Shown in pieces: positions 6,701-43,050 of a stretch of DNA of 64,000 nucleotides. The notes under the pieces are model-generated. The model made no database searches and was not told the origin of the DNA. It was given only the letters and a program-made list of their open reading frames with translations. Origin of the DNA: Azospirillum lipoferum 4B. GTDB lineage: Bacteria; Pseudomonadota; Alphaproteobacteria; Azospirillales; Azospirillaceae. The stretch spans positions 2,554,501 to 2,618,500 of the forward strand of contig NC_016622.1 in assembly GCF_000283655.1 (NCBI RefSeq). Reading direction: 5' to 3'. Numbering within the stretch: position 1 is the stretch's first letter; each line of letters starts with the position of its first letter. The translations under genes were made by a program, and so were the position numbers.

Positions 6701-7422
6701 GCGGTCCCCCCAAAATTATCATGGATTTCGGCGACGATGCGGCGGGCGGCGGCGGCCGGGTCGGGATCGGCGGTGATCGGGCGGCCGATGACCAGATGGT
6801 CGGCCCCGGCGGCCAGCGCCTCCGCCGGGGTCATGATGCGCTTCTGGTCGTTGGTGGCGGCCCAGGCCGGGCGGATGCCGGGCACCATCAGGATGAAATC
6901 GGGTCCGCAGGCCGCGCGGACCAGCGCCACCTCGGCCGGGGAGCAGACGACGCCGTCCACCCCGGACGCCTTGGCGAGCCTGGCCAGCCGCACCACCTGG
7001 TCTGCCACCGGCACCGACTGCCCGACGGCACCGAGATCGCCCTCGTCCAGGCTGGTCAGAACGGTGACGGCCAGGATCTTCGGACGATCCGCACCGGCAG
7101 TCGCCGCCGTCTCCGCCGCCGCGCGCATCATCGCCGGCCCGCCGGAGCTATGGATCGTCATGAAGGCCGGCTTCAGCGGCAGCGCCGCGCGCACGCCGCC
7201 CGCCACCGTGTTGGGGATGTCATGCAGCTTCAGGTCGAGGAACAGCGGCGGCCCGTCCTCCCCCACCACGGCGCGGACGCCGGCCGGCCCCTGGGCGATG
7301 AAGAACTCCAGCCCCAGCTTGATGCCGCCGACGGCCCCGGCCACCTGCCCGGCGATGCGGCGGGCGGCGTCGATCTCGGTGGTGTCGACGGAGCAATAGA
7401 TGCGCGAGGCTGGCGCGGTCAT
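6697..7422 (-). CDS. pyrF: orotidine 5'-phosphate decarboxylase
   Basis: 241 residues. It decarboxylates OMP to UMP, the last step of de novo pyrimidine synthesis. The catalytic Lys-Asp array is in FLDLKLHDIPNTV, and the C-terminal phosphate loop in MVPGIRP and LVIGRPITADPDP. The start at 7422 (MTAPASRIYCSVDTTE) begins just before the first barrel strand; more upstream codons encode a low-complexity basic stretch. The end overlaps trpF. The heme oxygenase gene lies 73 bp upstream on the same strand. Confidence 0.95.
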   Translation of the reverse strand: MTAPASRIYCSVDTTEIDAARRIAGQVAGAVGGIKLGLEFFIAQGPAGVRAVVGEDGPPLFLDLKLHDIPNTVAGGVRAALPLKPAFMTIHSSGGPAMMRAAAETAATAGADRPKILAVTVLTSLDEGDLGAVGQSVPVADQVVRLARLAKASGVDGVVCSPAEVALVRAACGPDFILMVPGIRPAWAATNDQKRIMTPAEALAAGADHLVIGRPITADPDPAAAARRIVAEIHDNFGGTA

Positions 7423-7495: not shown

Positions 7496-8059
7496 TCAAC
7501 CCCTCTGCTCCCCCCACTGCTCCGCCGTCCACCGTTCCAGCGCTGCGAACAGGCCGGCGGCGGTGGCGCAGGCGACGGCCAGCGCCGCCGGATCGGCAAG
7601 CTCCTCCTCCAGCCGGACCATCAGCGCCTTCCAGGCGCCGGCCATGTCCAGCCCGTCCGACGCCAGGAAGCGCGCGCCGCGCCGGGCATCGAACCCCAGA
7701 GCGCGGGTGATCCCCGGCAGCATCGCCCGACCGCCATGGGCCGAGCCGTCCAGGACGTAGCGCGCCGCCAGCCGGGCCGGCGAGTTGTCGAGCGGCGGCA
7801 GGCCCCCCAATTCCGGCAGCGCGTCCGGATCGGTGCCGAGAACCCGCAAATCCTGGCGCAGCAGCGCCATCCGCGCCGAACCAGCCTCCCCCAGCGCCCG
7901 CTCGACCGGCGCGTTGAAGCCATGGAGCACGGCCAGCGCGCGGGCATACTGGTCGGCCGTGATGTCCGGCCGGACCAGCGGCTGCAGGACTGCCGCCTTG
8001 TCCAGCCGGTCGTGGCTTTCCCGCGTCGCGGCGCGCAGCGCCTGCCTTGCCGGTCCCAT
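7496..8059 (-). CDS. heme oxygenase-like protein (biliverdin-producing type)
   Basis: 187 residues, all-helical. The N-terminal ALRAATRESHDRLD has the spacing of the proximal-haem-ligand helix of heme oxygenases, with His16 as likely ligand. YARALAVLHGFNAPVE follows as the second helix of the fold. LGTDPDALPELGGLPPLDNSPARLAARYVLDGSAHGG resembles the bacterial BphO group, with the distal glycine-rich helix. It would open haem to biliverdin, iron and CO. It begins 21 bp after the ABC exporter stop, so both are probably one transcript. No bacteriophytochrome gene is next to it, which is the usual context of BphO, so a role in iron or haem turnover is possible. Confidence 0.75.
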   Translation of the reverse strand: MGPARQALRAATRESHDRLDKAAVLQPLVRPDITADQYARALAVLHGFNAPVERALGEAGSARMALLRQDLRVLGTDPDALPELGGLPPLDNSPARLAARYVLDGSAHGGRAMLPGITRALGFDARRGARFLASDGLDMAGAWKALMVRLEEELADPAALAVACATAAGLFAALERWTAEQWGEQRG

Positions 8060-12879: not shown

Positions 12880-13068
12880 ATGTCCCGCCGCCCCATCAGG
12901 CACCGCCTTCTCCCCCTCGCCGCCCTGCTGCTGGGCGGTTCGCTGGCTGGCTGCGGTGCCGTCACCGGCGTGGCCGGCGGCGCCGTAAGCCTCGCCGGCA
13001 CCGCCGCGGACATCGCCGGCACGGTGGCCGAAACCTCGGTCGACGTGGTGACCTACCCGCTGCGGTGA
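12880..13068 (+). CDS. small lipoprotein
   Basis: 62 residues. A basic start (MSRRPIRHR), a leucine-rich core and the lipobox GSLAGC (Cys at about residue 25) show a type II signal peptide, so it should be lipid-anchored. The mature part is a short Gly/Ala/Val-rich helix (GVAGGAVSLAGTAADIAG) without recognised domain. A good GGAG ribosome site lies 6 bases before the ATG. Similar small glycine-rich lipoproteins are common in Rhodospirillales and uncharacterised. It is convergent with the LRR-Roc-COR-TIR gene, only 9 bp away. Confidence 0.75.
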   Translation: MSRRPIRHRLLPLAALLLGGSLAGCGAVTGVAGGAVSLAGTAADIAGTVAETSVDVVTYPLR

Positions 13069-13077
13069 GGCGGAGCG

Positions 13078-16000
13078 TCAGGCCGGCGGATCGTCGAAGC
13101 CATAGGCCAGCAGCTCCTCAAGATTGCCCGGCCGCAGGATGCTGTTCATCGTCGCCAGGATGTCGGCGACGTAGAGGTAGTAGGCCTGCATCCGGCGCAG
13201 TTCATTCATACCGTCCTGCCCCAGCTTTGTTGCCCCATCTTGGGTAAAGCTGTTCAGTTCCTTGAACTCAGCCTGCCAGTAAGCCCCCCATTTGACACGA
13301 TCCACTGCTTTTCTTATCGAGAAGCCCGGCACGATGTAGACGCGGACGCGCTTCAGGAAATCGCCACTGTCCTGACAACTGGTCCGCCATATCTCGCTGA
13401 GTTCGAACATACAGTTCGGCGATTCCAGATATCCTTTGCTGAGAATGACAAAGATACGGTCGCCCGCACCGATCCGGCGCATGAAGTCGGTGATGCTGTC
13501 GCCGATCTTCAACTCGTTCTTGTCGCGCCGGATGATGTGCCCGCGCTCTTTCGCCTTCGCGCACAGATCGTCGATGAGCTTTGTGTGTTCCCTGCCTTCC
13601 GGACTGTCATCGCCCCAGGAATAGGACACGAAGCATTCCGGCCCCTGCGGCGGCTTATCGAAAACCAAGGGTGTTTCCTCCCGTTCGGGTTTGCTGCGCT
13701 TGGGATGGTCCACATTCTCGGCCCGCAGGCCGATGCGGCTTTGCGCCCGCTCGACGATCCCGATCAGGCGGTCGAGCAGCAGGGCGGCCTGCCCCTTCTG
13801 GGTCCGCACCCGGATTTCGCCCTGCCAGGACTCGGGACCGGTCGGCACCTGTTCGATGCGCAGGCGGCTGCCGCAGGTCTTCTCATAGCCGCAGAGCCCG
13901 CCCTTCCAGTAGAGCGCGCGGTCGCCGGCCTTTTCGCCGATCTCCGCCATGATGGTGCGGATCAGGCCGTCATGCAGCAGGGGATAGCGGAAGACCGCCT
14001 GCTCCGTCGGCAACTCCTCGTCCCACAGCCCGCCGAGATCGTCGCGGACGCTGTCCTCCGCCGGCAACAGGTCGGGGGCGATGTATTCCACCACCCGCTC
14101 CCGGCCGTCCGGGATCTCGCGGTGTTTGAAACAGATGCCGCAGGACAGCATCATGCTGACGAACAGCGCCCGGTCGGCCGGCAGATGATCCGCCCACACC
14201 AGCCGGTCGAGCAGGTCGCGGGTGAAGCGGCCGTTGTTGTGGCGGATCTGCTGCAAGGCGCCGCGGTCGCGGTCGAAGACGGCATAGATCGCCTCCAGCG
14301 CCCAATTCTGGTCCAGCACGACATGGTTGTGGAACAGGCCGGGCCGATGGAACACGGTGCCTTCGGCGTCCAGCCAGACCAGCAGAGCCTCCGGCGAGGA
14401 CACGTCGTCCTTTTCGGCACAGATCGCCGTGAACGCCTCCATGGTCAGCAGGCGGTGGCGCCGTTCGGCTGGCGGGCGGGCTTCGTCCTCGTCCCGCATC
14501 TGCTCCAGCCGGCGCTGGACCCGCAGACGGCCGGCACCGACCTTCGCCACCCCCAGCCGTTCCGAATCGCGCATCCACTCGACGGCATCGCGCAGGCAGT
14601 CCCTGAGGGCGTCGAAACGCCGTCCGGTCTCGGCGCTGACCCTCAGGATGTCGCAGTAGCGGTCCGGGGCGTTCAGCAACCCGTCCGGGGCGGGGGGACG
14701 GGCCTCCTCCTGGTCCTTGCGTTCGCACCGGGTCTGGATCACCAGACGCGGGCTGTAGCGGTGCCCCTGGTGATGCGCCACAGCCAGCCAATAGGGCAGC
14801 GGCTGGTTGCGGAACTCCAGCCCGCCATACGTATGGGTCGGCTCGTTTTCGACCTTGCGCGCCCACACCACCGCCAGCAGGGCCGGGCTGCTCAGGAACA
14901 GGGCATGCGCGCCGTGATAGATGTCCTGGCCGCCGAAATCCCAGACATGCAGACGGATCTGCGACTCCCCATCCAGATCGATCCGCCCGATCCGGATGCC
15001 GTGGGTCGAGACCGACTCGGACTCGAACGGCAAGCCGGCCAGTTTGCGGGCGATCTGCGTCTTGCCGACCCGGCCATTGCCGAGCAATAGCAGCTTCACC
15101 GTTGGGACGGCCTCCTCACCGGCCGCAAGGTCCGCCCAATGGGCACGCAGCCGATCCAGGCAGTTGTCATCAGGTTCCTGAGACAAGACCCCTGCCGTGG
15201 GAATGCCCGGGATTTCGACATTGTAAAGATACAACTCCTGCAAACTGCTCAGACCGCTGAGCGGGAACAGGTCGCTCACAGACGTGTCGGAACAGGATAG
15301 CTCCTGCAAGCCGCTCAGACCGCTGAGCGGGGATAGGTCACTCACCGACGTGACGGAACAGTACAACTGCTGCAAGCCGCTCAGACCGCTGAGCGGGGAC
15401 AGGTCATTCACCGACGTGCCGGAGCAGGACAACTGCTGCAAGCCGCTCAGACCGCTGAGCGGGGACAGGTCGCTCACTGACGTACCGGAACAGTACAACT
15501 GCTGCAAGCCGCTCAGACCGCTGAGCGGGGACAGGTCGCTCACAGACGTGCCGGAGCAGGACAACTCCTGCAAGCCGCTCAGACCGCTGAGCGGGGACAG
15601 GTCGCTCACAGACGTGCCGGAGCAGGACAACTCCTGCAAGCCGCTCAGACCGCTGAGCGGGGACAGGTCGCTCACAGACGTGAGGGAACAGTCCAACTGC
15701 TGCAAACCATTCAGACCGCTGAGAGGGGACAGGTCGCTCACCGACGTGCCGGAACAGGACAACTCCTGCAAGCCGCTCAGACCGCTGAGCGGGAACAGGT
15801 CGCTCACAGACGTGCTGGAGCAGGACAACTGCTGCAAGCCGCTCAGACCGCTGAGCGGGAACAGGTCGCTCACAGACGTGCTGGAACAGTCCAACTGCTG
15901 CAAGCCGCTCAGACCGCTGAGCGGGGACAGGTCGCTCACAGACGTGCTGGAACAGGATAACTGCTGCAAGTCGCTCAGACCGCTGAGCGGGGACAGGTCG

Positions 16001-16482
16001 CTCACAGACGTGAGGGAACAGTCCAACTGCTGCAAGCCCCTCAAACCATTGAGCGGGGACAGGTCGCTCACCGACGTGCCGGAACAGTTCAACTGCTGCA
16101 AGCTGTTCAGGCCGTTGAGCGGGGACAGGTCGCTAACCGACGTGAGGGAACAGTCCAACTGCTGCAAACCATTCAGACCATCGAGCAGGACTAAATCGGC
16201 GATGTCCGACGCATCAATTATTAAAGTTCGGAGAAGTCCAAAAGATGAAAATCTATGTTGCTGGGCGCAAATTTTGTTCCCAGCAAAATCACTCCACCAA
16301 TCCGCCCCCAAATCCAATTCTTGGAGATGCTTTAGGGCGAACAATTCCTCCGGCAGCCATTCCAGTTCCAGGTTCCGCAGGCTCAGCCGTCCGGTCCGCT
16401 GCTCCGCTTCCTCGGCGATGCGCTCCAGTGCGATCGCCATGCCGTCCTGCTTCGGAGTCTTCTCAGTTACCATAAGTTTCAC
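13078..16482 (-). CDS. LRR-Roc-COR-TIR multidomain protein (bacterial Roco GTPase fused to a TIR domain)
   Basis: 1134 residues counted from the GTG at 16482; an ATG three codons later (16473) is equally possible. Order: a helical cap with one ordinary LRR (about 30-60), fifteen 22-residue LRR units (97-426), a Roc GTPase (about 460-640) with Walker A GNGRVGKT (468-475) and switch motif DFGGQD (515-520), a COR region (about 700-800, VVLDQNWALEAIYAVFDRD), a linker, and a C-terminal TIR domain (about 948-1080) starting FVSYSWGDDS. The TIR helix SPNCMFELSEIW puts Glu1027 at the catalytic position of NAD-cleaving TIRs. The G4 motif (TRCE) is degenerate. I infer an LRR-sensing, GTP-gated NADase, perhaps for phage defence or cell suicide; that is unproven. 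It has its own upstream gap after a terminator, and the region near residues 60-90 is AT-rich for this genome, which hints at transfer. Confidence 0.9.
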   Translation of the reverse strand: MKLMVTEKTPKQDGMAIALERIAEEAEQRTGRLSLRNLELEWLPEELFALKHLQELDLGADWWSDFAGNKICAQQHRFSSFGLLRTLIIDASDIADLVLLDGLNGLQQLDCSLTSVSDLSPLNGLNSLQQLNCSGTSVSDLSPLNGLRGLQQLDCSLTSVSDLSPLSGLSDLQQLSCSSTSVSDLSPLSGLSGLQQLDCSSTSVSDLFPLSGLSGLQQLSCSSTSVSDLFPLSGLSGLQELSCSGTSVSDLSPLSGLNGLQQLDCSLTSVSDLSPLSGLSGLQELSCSGTSVSDLSPLSGLSGLQELSCSGTSVSDLSPLSGLSGLQQLYCSGTSVSDLSPLSGLSGLQQLSCSGTSVNDLSPLSGLSGLQQLYCSVTSVSDLSPLSGLSGLQELSCSDTSVSDLFPLSGLSSLQELYLYNVEIPGIPTAGVLSQEPDDNCLDRLRAHWADLAAGEEAVPTVKLLLLGNGRVGKTQIARKLAGLPFESESVSTHGIRIGRIDLDGESQIRLHVWDFGGQDIYHGAHALFLSSPALLAVVWARKVENEPTHTYGGLEFRNQPLPYWLAVAHHQGHRYSPRLVIQTRCERKDQEEARPPAPDGLLNAPDRYCDILRVSAETGRRFDALRDCLRDAVEWMRDSERLGVAKVGAGRLRVQRRLEQMRDEDEARPPAERRHRLLTMEAFTAICAEKDDVSSPEALLVWLDAEGTVFHRPGLFHNHVVLDQNWALEAIYAVFDRDRGALQQIRHNNGRFTRDLLDRLVWADHLPADRALFVSMMLSCGICFKHREIPDGRERVVEYIAPDLLPAEDSVRDDLGGLWDEELPTEQAVFRYPLLHDGLIRTIMAEIGEKAGDRALYWKGGLCGYEKTCGSRLRIEQVPTGPESWQGEIRVRTQKGQAALLLDRLIGIVERAQSRIGLRAENVDHPKRSKPEREETPLVFDKPPQGPECFVSYSWGDDSPEGREHTKLIDDLCAKAKERGHIIRRDKNELKIGDSITDFMRRIGAGDRIFVILSKGYLESPNCMFELSEIWRTSCQDSGDFLKRVRVYIVPGFSIRKAVDRVKWGAYWQAEFKELNSFTQDGATKLGQDGMNELRRMQAYYLYVADILATMNSILRPGNLEELLAYGFDDPPA
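15205..16194 (-). repeat. fifteen tandem 66-bp LRR-encoding repeats
   Basis: In-frame 66-bp units each encode a 22-residue LRR of the form LSPLSGLSGLQxLxCSxTSVSD. The outer units are more diverged; the last one (towards 15205) ends the array. The units at 15535-15600 and 15601-15666 are identical over all 66 bp, which shows very recent duplication. Most differences fall at a few codons: after LQQL or LQEL, and the residue after CS. Confidence 0.95.
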
Positions 16483-16550
16483 TGCCCGGACCTTCGACGC
16501 CGCCGCCGTTCGATCCGGTCAGTTTAGCACAATCCCCGCATACCCCACAT

Positions 16551-16581
16551 GGGCGGATCATCGTCTTGAGGTGATCCGCCC
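16551..16581 (-). terminator. terminator between the phosphatase-like gene and the LRR-Roc-COR-TIR gene
   Basis: GGGCGGATCA and TGATCCGCCC form a perfect 10-bp stem with an 11-base loop, 19 bp after the phosphatase-like stop. There is no long T-run. It suggests that the LRR-Roc-COR-TIR gene has its own promoter in 16483-16550. Confidence 0.6.
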
Positions 16582-16599
16582 CTGCGGCGGTTGCAGCCG

Positions 16600-17181
16600 T
16601 CAGTCGATCAAATCCTCGACCTCGCGGATGCGGCCGTTGTCGATCATGAACTGGACCAGTTCGGGGCGCTGCTTGCCCAGCGTGACATGGCGCTGGCGCA
16701 CGGCGGCGACCAGTTCGCCCCGGCGGCCGAGGATGTCGTCGGCGAATTCGGTCATGCGCAGGTTGGGCCAGGTCTGGGCGCGGATGGCGACCACGGCGGC
16801 GACGGCGTCGGCGGCCGGGCGGTCGGGCTGGGCCTGGGCCAGGATCATGGTCAGGGCGGCGGTGGAGCGCGACACGCCGGCATGGCAGTGGACCAGCAGA
16901 TGGCGGCAGTCCACCGGCTCGGCCAGCAGGTCGCGGCCGAAGGCCAGGATGCGCTCCACGTCCGCGCGTTCCGGCGCGATCTGGCCGCGGGCCGGCTCGA
17001 TGATGTCGTGGAAGCGCAGTTCCAGCCGCTCATGCTCGCCGTAATCGCCGAAGTCGCTCGGCTCCGTCATCTCGGGGTCGAGGATGGACAGCACATGGCT
17101 GACCTTGCCGCCGCCGAAATTGCAAAGCTCGCTGAGACCGCAGACGGTCAGGCCGAAGGGAACGAAATCGCTGGCCATCAT
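16600..17181 (-). CDS. protein-tyrosine-phosphatase-like protein
   Basis: 193 residues. The loop VHCHAGVSRSTAA contains the CX5R signature (Cys-His-Ala-Gly-Val-Ser-Arg) of cysteine phosphatases, and Asp residues in the FHDI segment could be the general acid. The fold is that of small dual-specificity phosphatases. Similar genes are single-copy and uncharacterised in Azospirillum-like genomes; phosphotyrosine, phosphoinositide or another phosphoester could be substrate. Two adjacent ATGs (17181 and 17178) follow a GAGAG ribosome site; the first is used. A terminator separates it from the LRR-Roc-COR-TIR gene, so a joint role is only possible, not shown. Confidence 0.8.
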   Translation of the reverse strand: MMASDFVPFGLTVCGLSELCNFGGGKVSHVLSILDPEMTEPSDFGDYGEHERLELRFHDIIEPARGQIAPERADVERILAFGRDLLAEPVDCRHLLVHCHAGVSRSTAALTMILAQAQPDRPAADAVAAVVAIRAQTWPNLRMTEFADDILGRRGELVAAVRQRHVTLGKQRPELVQFMIDNGRIREVEDLID

Positions 17182-17306
17182 TCTCTCGTTCGATTGCGGA
17201 TAAGGGGGGAAGCGCGGGGTCGGGGCCTGCATTTGGCACCCCGCGCCGCGCCCCCGTCAACCCGGCAACCCTTCGCATGTGGGCCACTTCGCCCGGATAA
17301 GCCCGA

Positions 17307-20239: not shown

Positions 20240-20578
20240 CGCTCACCTTGAACGGGGCAGAGTGAAGGCAGGAAGGCCATCGGCCTTCGGCGCGACCATA
20301 CAGGAGGCGGGCTCCTCTTCGCCACCGCAGCGCAACCGGGATCGCTATGCGCTTTTTGGGACGGCCGGATCGAAGAAGCGGGGCCGGCATCGAAAATTTT
20401 AGTGAAATCGCCTGTTTCGCCGCAGCCCCCCTGCGCAGGAGTCCCCGCCGGCCCGCGTATCTTGATCGTCGAGACGCCCGAGACGAGCCCGCCGGCCCGT
20501 GTCAGAGGACGTCCGCGCCAAATACGGCAGTCCTTCACGACGGCGGATTACGCCGGCAAATCAAGGGGGCATCGGGCC
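20240..20578. other. 339-bp divergent gap without a gene
   Basis: It must hold the promoters of the SH3 lipoprotein and of the EF-hand gene. I see no coding frame, no strong hairpin and no known operator. Confidence 0.5.
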
Positions 20579-21388
20579 ATGATTTCCTCCCTCGGCAGTT
20601 CCGGCAGCGCCGCGACGCTGCAGAAATTCTTCTCGAAGGCCGACGCCAACAGCGACTCGTCGCTGACGACGGACGAACTGCTGAGCACGCTCGGCGAGAC
20701 CTCCGCCGCGTCCGACAGTTCCAAGCTGTCCTCGGCGGTCGACAGCCTGGTCAAGAGCCTGGACAGCGACAGCGACGGATCGCTCAGCGCGACGGAGTTC
20801 AGCTCCTTCTCCAGCCAGTTCGACTATGGCAGCGGCAGCGCCCTGCTGGCGGCACAGGAGCAGGCGGGCGCGATGCGGCAGCAGTTCGCGCAGAACCTCT
20901 ATTCCAGCCTGGACAGCGACAGCAGCGGCGGTGTCAGCGCCGATGAGCTTTCCTCCGCCCTGACCTCCGCCGGCCAGACCGACACCGACGCGTCGCAGCT
21001 GTTCAGCAGCCTCGACAGCGACGAGGACGGCACGATCTCGGAAGACGAACTGACCAGCGCCCTGGACGAGGCGGAGGCCAACCGTCCGCCGCCACCGCCG
21101 CCGCCCGCGAACGACAGCAGCGCTGCCAGCGGCACCAGCACGACATCCGCCACATCCGCGGCCTCATCGTCGTCCTCGGCCTCGTCGGGCGGCACCGCCT
21201 CGGCGTCTGCGGGCGGCACGACCAGCTACGATCCGCTGGACACCAACCAGGACGGCTATGTCTCGGAAGAAGAGAAGATGGCCGCCTATGGCGGGACCGC
21301 GCAGCAAAAGAGCGGCGTGACCTCCAACCGCCTCAGCGGCGACATGCTGCGGACTTTGATGCAGGGCATCAACGAGGTTGCCGCGTAA
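20579..21388 (+). CDS. EF-hand calcium-binding protein
   Basis: 269 residues with five calcium-loop sequences: DANSDSSLTTDE (22-33), DSDSDGSLSATE (62-73), DSDSSGGVSADE (112-123), DSDEDGTISEDE (146-157) and DTNQDGYVSEEE (221-232). Loops 2-5 keep the acidic 1-3-5-12 pattern. A Pro run (about 170-176) and a 45-residue Ser/Thr/Ala linker split the last loop from the rest. There is no classical signal peptide; the Ser/Gly-rich N-terminus (MISSLGSSGSA) and acidic composition recall secreted or flagellar-associated proteins, but that is only inference. ATG at 20579 was chosen because it starts this Ser-rich sequence. Confidence 0.88.
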   Translation: MISSLGSSGSAATLQKFFSKADANSDSSLTTDELLSTLGETSAASDSSKLSSAVDSLVKSLDSDSDGSLSATEFSSFSSQFDYGSGSALLAAQEQAGAMRQQFAQNLYSSLDSDSSGGVSADELSSALTSAGQTDTDASQLFSSLDSDEDGTISEDELTSALDEAEANRPPPPPPPANDSSAASGTSTTSATSAASSSSSASSGGTASASAGGTTSYDPLDTNQDGYVSEEEKMAAYGGTAQQKSGVTSNRLSGDMLRTLMQGINEVAA

Positions 21389-38305: not shown

Positions 38306-38380
38306 TGGAGCGGGCGAAGGGATTCGAACCCTCGACCCCAACCTTGGCAAGGTTGTGCTCTACCCCTGAGCTACGCCCGC
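38306..38380 (-). tRNA. tRNA-Gly (GCC)
   Basis: On the minus strand, GCGGGCG starts the acceptor arm and pairs with CGCCCGC before T-CCA, which is encoded. The D-arm GCTC...GAGC, the anticodon loop TTGCCAA with anticodon GCC flanked by CAACC/GGTTG, and the T-arm with GGTTCGAATCC all fold. The length is 75 nt including CCA. Confidence 0.96.
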
Positions 38381-40953: not shown

Positions 40954-41204
40954 CAAAATTGGGTCTAACCGCCGGCCGGCCGTTTCCGAGCATCGGCAAC
41001 AGCCCTATCCATTCTGCGGATATCCCTGGATCGCTGAGACTTCGGATGAGAATAATTCCGGCGATCATGATTAATTTTCGTGCGAGTCAGGGTTGGTAGC
41101 GCGTGCGTTCCGGGCGCGTTCCCGCTATAAACATGCATGGCGGCCATGCGCCGTCCTCAAGATAATGGGAGGCTCCGGGCGGCTGCGCACCGGGGCGGGA
41201 CAGC

Positions 41205-42098
41205 ATGATGGATTGGGACAAGCTGCGGGTTTTCCACGCGGTGGCCGAAGCCGGCAGCTTCACGCATGCCGGCGAGACGTTGAACCTCAGCCAATCGGCG
41301 GTCAGCCGCCAGATCAGCGCGCTTGAGGAAAGCCTGGGCGTTCCGCTGTTTCACCGCCACGCCCGCGGGCTGATCCTGACCGAACAGGGCGAGCTGCTTC
41401 ACCGCACCGCCCGCGACGTCTTCGCCAAGCTGTCGATGACCGAGGCGATGCTGACCGAAAGCCGGGAGCATCCCAAGGGGCCGCTGCGGGTGACGACGAC
41501 GGTGGCCTTCGGATCGACCTGGCTGACGCCGCGCATCAACGAGTTCATGTCGATCTACCCCGACATCCAGCTGACTCTGCTGATCGACGACGACGAGTTG
41601 GACCTGGCGATGCGGGAGGCGGACATCGCCATCCGCATGAACACGCCGCGCCAGCCGGACCTGATCCAGCGGCACCTGATGTCGATCCGCTTTCATCTCT
41701 ATGCCAGCCAGAGCTACCTGAAGAAGAAGGGTGCGCCCAAGACGCTGGCCGATCTGGACAGTCACGACCTGATCACCTACCCGCCCGACGTGCGGGCGCC
41801 GATCCCCAACGTCAACTGGATCATGGAGATGGGCGATCCCTCGCCCAGCCGGAAGCCGATCCTGCAGGTCAACAGCGTCTACGCCATCTACCGCGCGGTG
41901 GAGAGCGGGCTGGGCATCGGCGCACTGCCCGACTTCCTGGTCGACAGCTTCTCCAAGGACGTGACCCGCGTCCTGCCCGATGTCGACGGCCCGAAGGTCG
42001 ACGCCTACTTCGTTTATGCCGAAGAATTGCGCCATTCCAAGCGCATCGCGGTATTCCGCGACTTCCTGGTCAAAAAAGTGGCAGAAACCCCGTTCTGA
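41205..42098 (+). CDS. LysR-family regulator, VtlR/LsrB type
   Basis: 297 residues. The start MDWDKLRVFHAVAEAGSFTH and LNLSQSAVSRQISALEESLG are nearly those of the VtlR/LsrB group of rhizobia, Brucella and Agrobacterium. These control virulence, symbiosis, small-RNA (AbcR) and envelope functions. The DNA-binding domain is residues 1-65 and the effector domain about 92-290. The protein has no cysteine at all, unlike the rhizobial LsrB, for which redox-active cysteines are described. Two ATGs (41205 and 41208) compete; the first is used. The probable sRNA gene downstream matches the location of AbcR genes beside lsrB in rhizobia. Confidence 0.88.
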   Translation: MMDWDKLRVFHAVAEAGSFTHAGETLNLSQSAVSRQISALEESLGVPLFHRHARGLILTEQGELLHRTARDVFAKLSMTEAMLTESREHPKGPLRVTTTVAFGSTWLTPRINEFMSIYPDIQLTLLIDDDELDLAMREADIAIRMNTPRQPDLIQRHLMSIRFHLYASQSYLKKKGAPKTLADLDSHDLITYPPDVRAPIPNVNWIMEMGDPSPSRKPILQVNSVYAIYRAVESGLGIGALPDFLVDSFSKDVTRVLPDVDGPKVDAYFVYAEELRHSKRIAVFRDFLVKKVAETPF

Positions 42099-42289
42099 TC
42101 CGGGGCACTTTCCGACAGTTTGCAAGAGAGTTGCCGAAATTGACCGCGCTGCACCATCTTTCGGGGGCAGCCCGGCCGATTTCGGCATTTTTATTAGCCT
42201 TCTAAGCGTTCTTTCAAGCCATGCGTGGCTTGCATGGTAGATTTATTCATTTGTGCCTGGAAAGTTGGCAGCAGAATGGTCAAATTTTG

Positions 42290-42434
42290 ACCGTTGGATG
42301 CTGCGACGCAGCACCCGATGTTTCGTCCCGGAGGTCTCCCCTCCGGGGTTGGGTCTTCGGACCCAGCGTCTCCCAGACGTGAAGCCTCCCTGTTCAACTC
42401 GCCGCTAATCCATCGGATTAGCGGCGGTTTTTTT
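42290..42434 (+). ncRNA. probable small RNA (candidate AbcR-like or anti-SD-loop type) downstream of the VtlR/LsrB gene
   Basis: About 145 bases without a coding frame fold into four hairpins. Hairpin 1 is TGCTGC-gac-GCAGCA (42299-42313). Hairpin 2 is CCCGGAGG facing CTCCGGG with loop bases TCTCCC. Hairpin 3 is TGGGTC-TTCG-GACCCA with a stable tetraloop. The last is a perfect rho-independent terminator. A single-stranded GCCTCCC (42384-42390) and the CTCCC loop can pair with ribosome sites, as in alphaproteobacterial Hfq-dependent sRNAs. The 5' end is a guess. Position after a VtlR/LsrB gene recalls abcR1/abcR2, but I cannot confirm family membership. Confidence 0.6.
42400..42434 (+). terminator. 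rho-independent terminator of the probable sRNA
   Basis: CGCCGCTAATCC-atc-GGATTAGCGGCG is an exact 12-bp stem with a three-base loop, followed by G and seven T. It is the strongest terminator in the window and touches the stop codon of the convergent small gene. Confidence 0.92.
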
Positions 42435-42621
42435 ATGGGCGGAGAGTCCGGCGGATGTCCTGGGAAGACTGCGGCATTTCGTCCCCCTCACCCTCCTCCA
42501 GCGCCGCGCGCGCGATGGCCAGGATGTTGTCCAGGCGGATGACCAGTTCGTTCTCGCACAGGGCCGAACGCGCTGCGGCGGCTTCTGCCATGATGGAACG
42601 CAAGGCATCGCTTCGGGTCAT
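42433..42621 (-). CDS. small hypothetical protein
   Basis: 62 residues, helical and charged (MTRSDALRSIMAEAAAARSA then an acidic end). GGAGG stands five bases before the ATG. No domain is recognised. It is convergent with the probable sRNA, whose terminator overlaps its stop codon. Confidence 0.55.
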   Translation of the reverse strand: MTRSDALRSIMAEAAAARSALCENELVIRLDNILAIARAALEEGEGDEMPQSSQDIRRTLRP

Positions 42622-42780
42622 CGCCACCTCCGGTCCGATTGAACGAGCCCCCGGCCGGCCGGGCGCTGCTCCTAAAACGTGTCCAGCCCCACCGTCATTT
42701 TCTCGCCTGTGAAAAACTTCACAGCAAGGTTGCAGCGGTTTCACATACCTGTTTATGCACCAGCAACGGAGGGCTCCCAC

Positions 42781-43050
42781 ATGCAGATGCGCAACATCAG
42801 GGTGAACGGCAAGCGGACCAGCATGAAGCTGATGCCGGTGGAGTGGGAATCGCTGGAGGAAATCTGCACCCGCGAGCACATGACGATGAGCGAACTGGTG
42901 TCGAAGATCGATGCCGAGCGCCAGGACAGCGACAATCTCACCGGCTGCGTCCGCGTCTTTGCGCTCTGCTACTTCCGCAAGGCCGCCGGTTTGTCGGAGC
43001 CGATGCCGCGCCACCGCGCGCCGGAAACCATCGCCTACGCCGCCGAATAA
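42781..43050 (+). CDS. ribbon-helix-helix domain protein
   Basis: 89 residues. The segment KRTSMKLMPVEWESLEEICTREHMTMSELVSKID (read in two halves, about residues 11-44) is the RHH_4 type of ribbon-helix-helix fold, with a beta strand followed by two helices. Such proteins bind DNA as dimers, as transcription factors or antitoxin-like regulators. GGAGG lies before the ATG at 42781; a second ATG is two codons later. A perfect 12-bp inverted repeat follows its stop. Confidence 0.8.
   Translation: MQMRNIRVNGKRTSMKLMPVEWESLEEICTREHMTMSELVSKIDAERQDSDNLTGCVRVFALCYFRKAAGLSEPMPRHRAPETIAYAAE

Follow-up and report, generated by a model that had tools for sequence, protein, structure and literature searches.

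A single-gene insertion in Azospirillum lipoferum 4B encodes an LRR-Roc-COR-TIR protein that is probably an NLR-like immune receptor

What is the role of a solitary bacterial gene that joins leucine-rich repeats (LRRs), a Roco-type GTPase module and a TIR domain in a single reading frame? Such a gene lies at 13078..16482, on the minus strand, of a 64,000-nucleotide stretch of the Azospirillum lipoferum 4B genome (NC_016622.1, positions 2,554,501 to 2,618,500), hereafter called the window. Our results suggest that its product is a Roco-type innate immune receptor, self-contained and horizontally acquired, comparable to the nucleotide-binding LRR receptors (NLRs), and likely a phage sensor, a reading to which we assign a probability of about 60%.

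The frame is open over exactly 13078-16482 (1134 aa from a GTG start), and the predicted fusion was supported by Pfam, in which LRR, Roc, COR and TIR each scored above the curated cut-off. LRR_4 matched in 13 stretches (5e-47), about 14 near-identical LRRs being encoded; Roc (PF08477) matched at residues 463-546 (9e-14, 52.1 bits, cut-off 27), COR-A (PF16095) at residues 672-806 (5e-15, 56 bits, cut-off 35.3) and TIR_2 at residues 951-1074 (1.4e-7, 32.5 bits, cut-off 28). Both Pfam and the fold matches place COR directly after Roc, the arrangement of a Roco protein. Moreover, neither NB-ARC nor NACHT was among the 14 Pfam matches with E of 1 or less, so the protein does not carry the switch of the NLRs and of the signal transduction ATPases with numerous domains (STAND), and Roc-COR stands in its place, as had been claimed. 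Note that GTG is the mechanical start; by eye, an ATG at residue 15 (16438..16440, minus), with an AGGA ending four bases upstream, is likelier and fits the N-termini of the homologues better. A long open reading frame (ORF) on the opposite strand, 15284-17044, overlaps the LRR array and was taken as its shadow.

Structure prediction agreed with these calls for both the Roc-COR and the TIR parts. Combining Pfam, model and structure matches, Roc covers about residues 457-640 (14563..15114, with edges from the model), COR about residues 645-935 (13678..14550, COR-A by Pfam at 14065-14469) and TIR about residues 946-1134 (13081..13647, TIR_2 at 13261-13632), all on the minus strand. The Roc-COR model matched 6hlu, 3dpu and LRRK2. 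In the Roc domain, the two motifs named in the original prediction, G1/P-loop (GNGRVGKT, residues 468-475, 15058-15081, minus) and G3/switch II (DFGGQD, residues 515-520, 14923-14940, minus), are intact; guanine-nucleotide binding and GTPase activity are putative. The TIR model (pLDDT, the predicted local distance difference test, 91.9) had among its nearest structures the TIRs of RPP1, RPS4, SPARTA TIR-APAZ, AbTir, SARM1 and RUN1, which are enzymatic. By sequence, the TIR profile was closest to the plant TIRs Roq1, L6 and RUN1, the SEFIR structure 5y8f in the PDB scoring lower, and the best PDB sequence matches of the protein were internalins, for the LRR part, and the Chlorobium tepidum Roco. 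PADLOC, at E up to 1, returned two matches, bSEFIR (5.6e-7) and spbK (0.0063). The bSEFIR match is weak (27.7 bits over 74 residues, 947-1020, of the TIR part) and takes in none of LRR, Roc and COR, in which the window protein differs from bSEFIR and other stand-alone bacterial TIR/SEFIR genes. The C. tepidum Roco (6hlu, 8r4b), a model for LRRK2, differs in that the window protein ends in a TIR.

One contig scan gave 212 candidate stretches, 193 of them relatives. The best 80 relatives were retained; in 52 of these 80, hereafter the TIR-Roco set, the alignment spans more than 600 residues out of the 699 of Roc-COR-TIR. The position of the catalytic Glu of NADase (NAD-cleaving) TIRs is retained, as predicted from the FELSEIW motif: this Glu is E1027 (13402..13404, minus, codon checked), and a Glu occupies the position in 53/53 aligned sequences. 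S953 is equally invariant (53/53) and C1024 nearly so (51/53). HMMER aligned E1027 with the Glu of WCLMEL in flax L6, which we take to be the catalytic Glu of L6, of other plant TIRs and of SARM1. The TIR domain probably destroys nicotinamide adenine dinucleotide (NAD). The plant TIR-NLRs Roq1, RPP1, L6 and RUN1 share this Glu position with the window protein. Like it, plant TIR-NLRs carry an LRR sensor, a nucleotide switch and a TIR in one protein, in the reverse order.

How the gene came to the locus was seen in related genomes. The matches of the flanks to the nearest genome, G001, which shares 41% of sampled words with the window, end at 13071 and resume at 16600, and in at least four of 41 congeneric genomes the window flanks lie less than 100 bp apart, with 48 (G001), 86 (G014), 19 (G003) and 26 (G064) bases between them. 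The junction sequences of G001, G014 and G003 agree with the edges 13071/16600, so the segment inserted between the two flanks (13072..16599, 3.5 kb) consists of the gene alone, 117 bases upstream (16483..16599, minus) and 6 bases downstream. These empty sites confirm that the gene stands alone with its own upstream region, which was carried in with it. The edges adjoin the stop codons of two converging genes. One, at 12880..13068 (plus), is a small, by eye lipoprotein-like ORF without a Pfam match, aligned in G001 and with its end seen in G014 and G003. The other, at 16600..17232 (minus), had no Pfam match at 1e-5 and is identical to G001 at 597/601 bp of its aligned part; it is a putative tyrosine/dual-specificity phosphatase, a label that we presume from its motif HCHAGVSRS. 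The upstream region contains a hairpin at 16551-16581, just inside the insertion edge and after the stop codon of this flank gene; the plus strand of 16520-16600 folds as RNA at -36.6 kcal/mol (z -3.87), and the hairpin may be a terminator or an insulator. The GC content of the gene is 62.9%, against 68.5% for the window, and that at third codon positions 0.815, against about 0.90 in three other window genes. The AT-rich flank described earlier was not found: the 117 bp upstream of the gene have 65.8% GC, and the lower GC sits in the gene itself.

Gain of the gene in this lineage is the simplest reading of these comparisons. COR-A was matched in 3/45 genomes of the genus, on contigs other than those with matches to the window flanks, and of the 61 genomes around G001 three had a match. 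The relatives are spread over eight phyla, many coming from environmental assemblies. A Rhodopila sequence was placed among members of the genus in a 56-row gene tree (supports 95/82 and 96/90), where the phylum labels required 11 changes, where the minimum is 7 and shuffled labels averaged 20.4. Phyla are thus clustered, but not cleanly, and this pattern is no proof of transfer. There is no mobility gene inside the insertion; the longest word common to its two 120-bp edges is 8 bp, a length reached by 44% of random pairs. No near match was found on plasmids; the protein search returned 11 plasmid records, one of them covering at least 80%, and no phage records. A case of gene-sized hopping between G030 and G032 was considered, as the first alignment of their loci (L092 and L091) showed the gene alone in common. 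It was dropped because the right-hand flanks lie, inverted, on the same contig of the other genome, and the left flank of L091 lies on another G030 contig. Beside the Roco gene of L092, near the inversion relative to G032, lies a dispersed repeat of about 172 bp (7078-7251), partly self-complementary and present in G030 in some 40 copies at 92-98%.

The architecture itself is not new. Kaur et al. 2021 (eLife, PMC8195603) describe, in the available text, LRR-GTPase-COR-effector proteins, TIR included, as predicted counter-invader systems. As in their AP-GTPase (Roc)-COR systems, the window protein has N-terminal, fast-evolving LRRs, an AP-GTPase with COR, and a C-terminal effector from the swapped set. 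Their prediction, in that text, came from architecture and neighbourhoods; to this we add, for one member, the empty site, models, residue conservation and array remodelling. The C-termini of the other 28 relatives, of which 24 segments of at least 60 residues were scanned, matched TIR_2 (7), GT4-conflict (2), CHAT (2) and EAD11 (2), which indicates that the LRR-Roc-COR chassis bears different effectors, as in PMC8195603.

Does the TIR act by itself? It could instead make a signalling nucleotide, a cyclic ADP-ribose isomer, to activate an effector whose gene lies elsewhere, in the manner of Thoeris or the plant TIR-NLRs. The closeness of the TIR profile to the plant TIRs speaks for this possibility, and plant and bacterial TIRs often make such isomers, according to the available part of PMC10022894. 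We nevertheless consider it unlikely: the insertion holds one gene, the scanned C-termini of the relatives suggest direct effectors, and a partner gene did not emerge from the neighbourhoods. Among the 434 ORFs that lie up to four genes from 79 loci, genes being called simply as the longest ORF, the commonest family was FGE-sulfatase, near 8 loci (seven Bacteroidota lineages and one Verrucomicrobia by title), two of which, L065 and L082, belong to the TIR-Roco set. Around the 52 TIR-Roco loci (298 neighbour ORFs) no family occurred at more than three, which favours a self-contained effector. Moreover, no adjacent ThsA gene accompanies the insertion, and at 1e-10 PADLOC matched no Thoeris family in the 48 other window genes. 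In three relatives alone (L022 12099-12527, L041 12129-12533 and L045 12039-12461), a small ORF of 135-143 aa without a Pfam match lies directly 3' of the gene, and it was rejected as a general partner. Two further loci, L053 (2031-2684) and L062 (11666-12136), have the TIR-matching stretch in an ORF of its own, downstream of that for Roc-COR, and these copies look split or broken. In L106 (7125-10079, NZ_CP025614.1), the COR gene as annotated begins at 7908 and omits upstream in-frame LRRs, so that the gene is probably longer.

The original prediction had described a hypervariable-looking LRR array. The array (15231..16179, minus) is a tandem repeat of 66 bp, or 22 residues, with 14.4 copies at 89% matches by Tandem Repeats Finder, its units resembling SDLSPLSGLSGLQQLSCSGTSV, and it does vary among relatives. 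Within arrays, entropy peaks at unit positions 18, 15, 17 and 13 (mean over the 38/83 loci with at least six units); judged by the LRR consensus LxxLxLxxN, these positions would be exposed on the concave strand. To compare replacement with silent change (pN and pS, non-synonymous and synonymous change per site), we used 21 arrays, that of the window and 20 of relatives, with six or more units and 75% identity between adjacent ones, and a strand set of positions 12, 13, 15, 17 and 18, taken from the consensus and chosen after the entropy was seen. Non-synonymous change at the strand positions exceeded the mean of the other positions in 21/21 arrays, and at those other positions it lay below synonymous change in 21/21. 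Strand pN exceeded pS in 16/21 arrays, and in 13/21 when compared with pS outside the strand, these being uncorrected changes from unit pairs that are not independent. With the 20 arrays of relatives pooled and the window excluded, 22 of 26334 five-position sets equalled or beat the strand set. A set of concave positions picked by entropy had given pN > pS in 19/21 arrays, and was set aside for the consensus-based one.

Five pairs were compared unit by unit. L006 (Niveispirillum sp. SYP-B3756) and L025 (Azospirillum sp. RU38E), an ortholog pair, share flank DNA (92% over 1953 bp on the downstream side) and are 94.5% identical in Roc-COR-TIR; they carry 8 and 19 units, or 7 and 18 with another version of the unit pattern. 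Such counts are pattern-dependent because the pattern, of which several versions were used, misses LRRs with Cys at position 8. In L025, 18/19 units were closest to another unit of their own array, as were 4/8 in L006. The same held for 17/20 and 19/21 units in L012/L048, for 7/8 and 7/8 in L017/L019, and for 3/8 and 6/7 in L017/L047. Together with the fifth pair, discussed below, this comparison indicates that turnover of the array is common, not universal. In this the TIR-Rocos resemble the fungal NLRs, for which PMC4986451, in the part available, describes near-identical repeats, changes in repeat number, concerted evolution and position-specific selection; unlike here, those repeats are of the WD, TPR or ANK type, on NACHT or NB-ARC, and LRRs were not found there.

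A receptor of this kind need not sense phages. With the same logic of sensor, switch and killer, it could serve kin or allorecognition or cell-cell conflict, and the fungal repeats, internally conserved and positively selected, do serve nonself recognition (PMC4986451, same part); the arrays vary here as well. We regard this as quite unlikely, since the one-gene insertion has no secretion or delivery gene and the conflict systems of PMC8195603 are predicted there, in the available text, to be counter-invader. It is improbable, in turn, that the protein is a regulator with no immune role, a Roco GTPase in which the TIR is a scaffold and the array varies only through repeat slippage under weak constraint. 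A strand pN/pS near 1 in many arrays and the housekeeping-like neighbours in the window would suit such a regulator. Against it are the Glu in 53/53 sequences, unexpected for a scaffold, the patchy presence of the gene, the excess of strand change in every array, and the pooled ranking of the 22 unit positions, headed by 18, 15, 17 and 13. Delivery into a eukaryotic host, as for some bacterial TIR and LRR proteins, is very improbable: the LRR part has internalins among its best PDB matches and the genus is partly plant-associated, with the flank DNA matching, among others, Azospirillum replicons, two of them from wheat/grass root, but the protein start has no export signal, as judged by eye with no predictor run, and the relatives, across eight phyla, are in many cases environmental.

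Several results weigh against the reading as a phage-sensing immune receptor. In the Roc domain, the canonical G4 form is N/TKxD, whereas the motif here is TRCE (inside 14722-14739, minus), whose last two letters are mostly CD across the family and CE in four others of the 53 (L012, L036, L048 and L064). The non-enzymatic TIRs of MyD88, MAL and IL-18R were also among the fold matches of the TIR model. In the fifth pair, L018/L046, there was no turnover, with 0/9 and 0/9 units closer to their own array. Strand position 12 is not variable (12th of 22), strand pN lay below pS in 5/21 arrays, or 8/21 against pS outside the strand, and the window array has a strand pN/pS of 1.01, without an excess of replacement over silent change. 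Much of the pattern could therefore be due to relaxed constraint, and the array of the window, taken by itself, shows that at most. As for the surroundings, nearby window genes resemble housekeeping genes, and PADLOC gave two families, judged general, for the 48 other window genes. The enrichment of defence genes around the relatives is weak: PADLOC at 1e-10 gave 34 families in 149 neighbours of the 52 loci (149/150 ORFs within two genes, one of more than 1500 aa omitted) against 7 in 149 control genes (149/165 genes from 12 chosen regions of 12 genomes, on the same contigs and at a distance of over 80 kb); these numbers refer to families, more than one of which may match a given protein. Location in a defence island is thus weakly supported. 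Overall, the immune receptor first proposed stands in its fusion, its Glu, its variable array and its nature as an acquired solitary gene; that it is GTP-gated and an NADase is where the proposal outran the data, and its architecture had been published.

How could such a receptor work? In C. tepidum, the Roco is monomeric and open when bound to GTP, whereas free of nucleotide it is dimeric and closed, its LRR being folded onto COR-B, and a nanobody bound in the curvature of the LRR stabilises the open form, since it clashes with the closed one (PMC5714945 and PMC11052575, in the parts available). This precedent, and the expectation that the most variable positions line the curvature, led us to propose that the switch is opened, and the TIRs are set free, when a foreign protein binds the concave face. 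The N-terminal LRR solenoid would be the sensor, binding a foreign, most likely phage, protein; the bound ligand would stop the LRR from folding back on COR, and Roc-COR would shift to the open, GTP-bound state. The C-terminal TIRs, once freed, would associate, and their composite active sites would cleave NAD, with growth arrest or death of the infected cell as the outcome. Duplication and exchange of 66-bp units, with change at concave-face residues, may give rise to new specificities. TIR catalysis in known systems requires association. This leaves the last coupling step unexplained, and counts against the reading, since GTP monomerises the Chlorobium Roco (PMC5714945, as above); clustering driven by the ligand, or TIR-TIR contacts, are candidates to bring the TIRs together. 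The fuller proposal, that TIR-Rocos are evolvable receptors whose arrays are quickly rebuilt by duplication and exchange of 66-bp units, change being steered to the concave face, with a ligand on that face that acts like the nanobody, opens an LRRK2-type switch and releases a TIR NADase, is a tentative one, which we would sooner bet against than for.

Elsewhere in the window, the ORF 20402-21385 has several EF-hand matches (EF-hand_7, 3.7e-21), which we consider unusual for a bacterium; a GC dip at 41001-43000 (0.613, against 0.685 overall) is possibly a further acquired stretch; and a tRNA-Gly (gcc) at 38306-38380 (minus) is the sole tRNA gene found.

Finally, we know of no physiological role for the bacterial Roco proteins, which serve as the main structural models of LRRK2. 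The available text of the 2024 paper on the Chlorobium Roco (PMC11052575) names none, and that of PMC13142454, PMC7159879 and PMC12750041 holds nothing on a TIR-Roco; our literature search, which left most subscription journals outside, found no experiment that tested a bacterial Roco for a part in phage defence. The new part is evidence that the insertion comprises a single gene and that the sensor array is remodelled, in an architecture that had been predicted before. As a compact, one-gene member with measurable effector chemistry (NAD), a known Glu, empty-site relatives and an LRR array that offers access to specificity, this gene makes the function of a bacterial Roco testable. If the immune receptor reading is right, a Ras-like switch, and not a STAND one, would drive TIR immunity, and the repeats would let a bacterial receptor change its specificity. 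If the fuller proposal is true, the TIR-Rocos would be a bacterial counterpart of the repeat-shuffling fungal NLRs, and bacterial Roco proteins, perhaps also the ancestor of LRRK2, would have an immune function.

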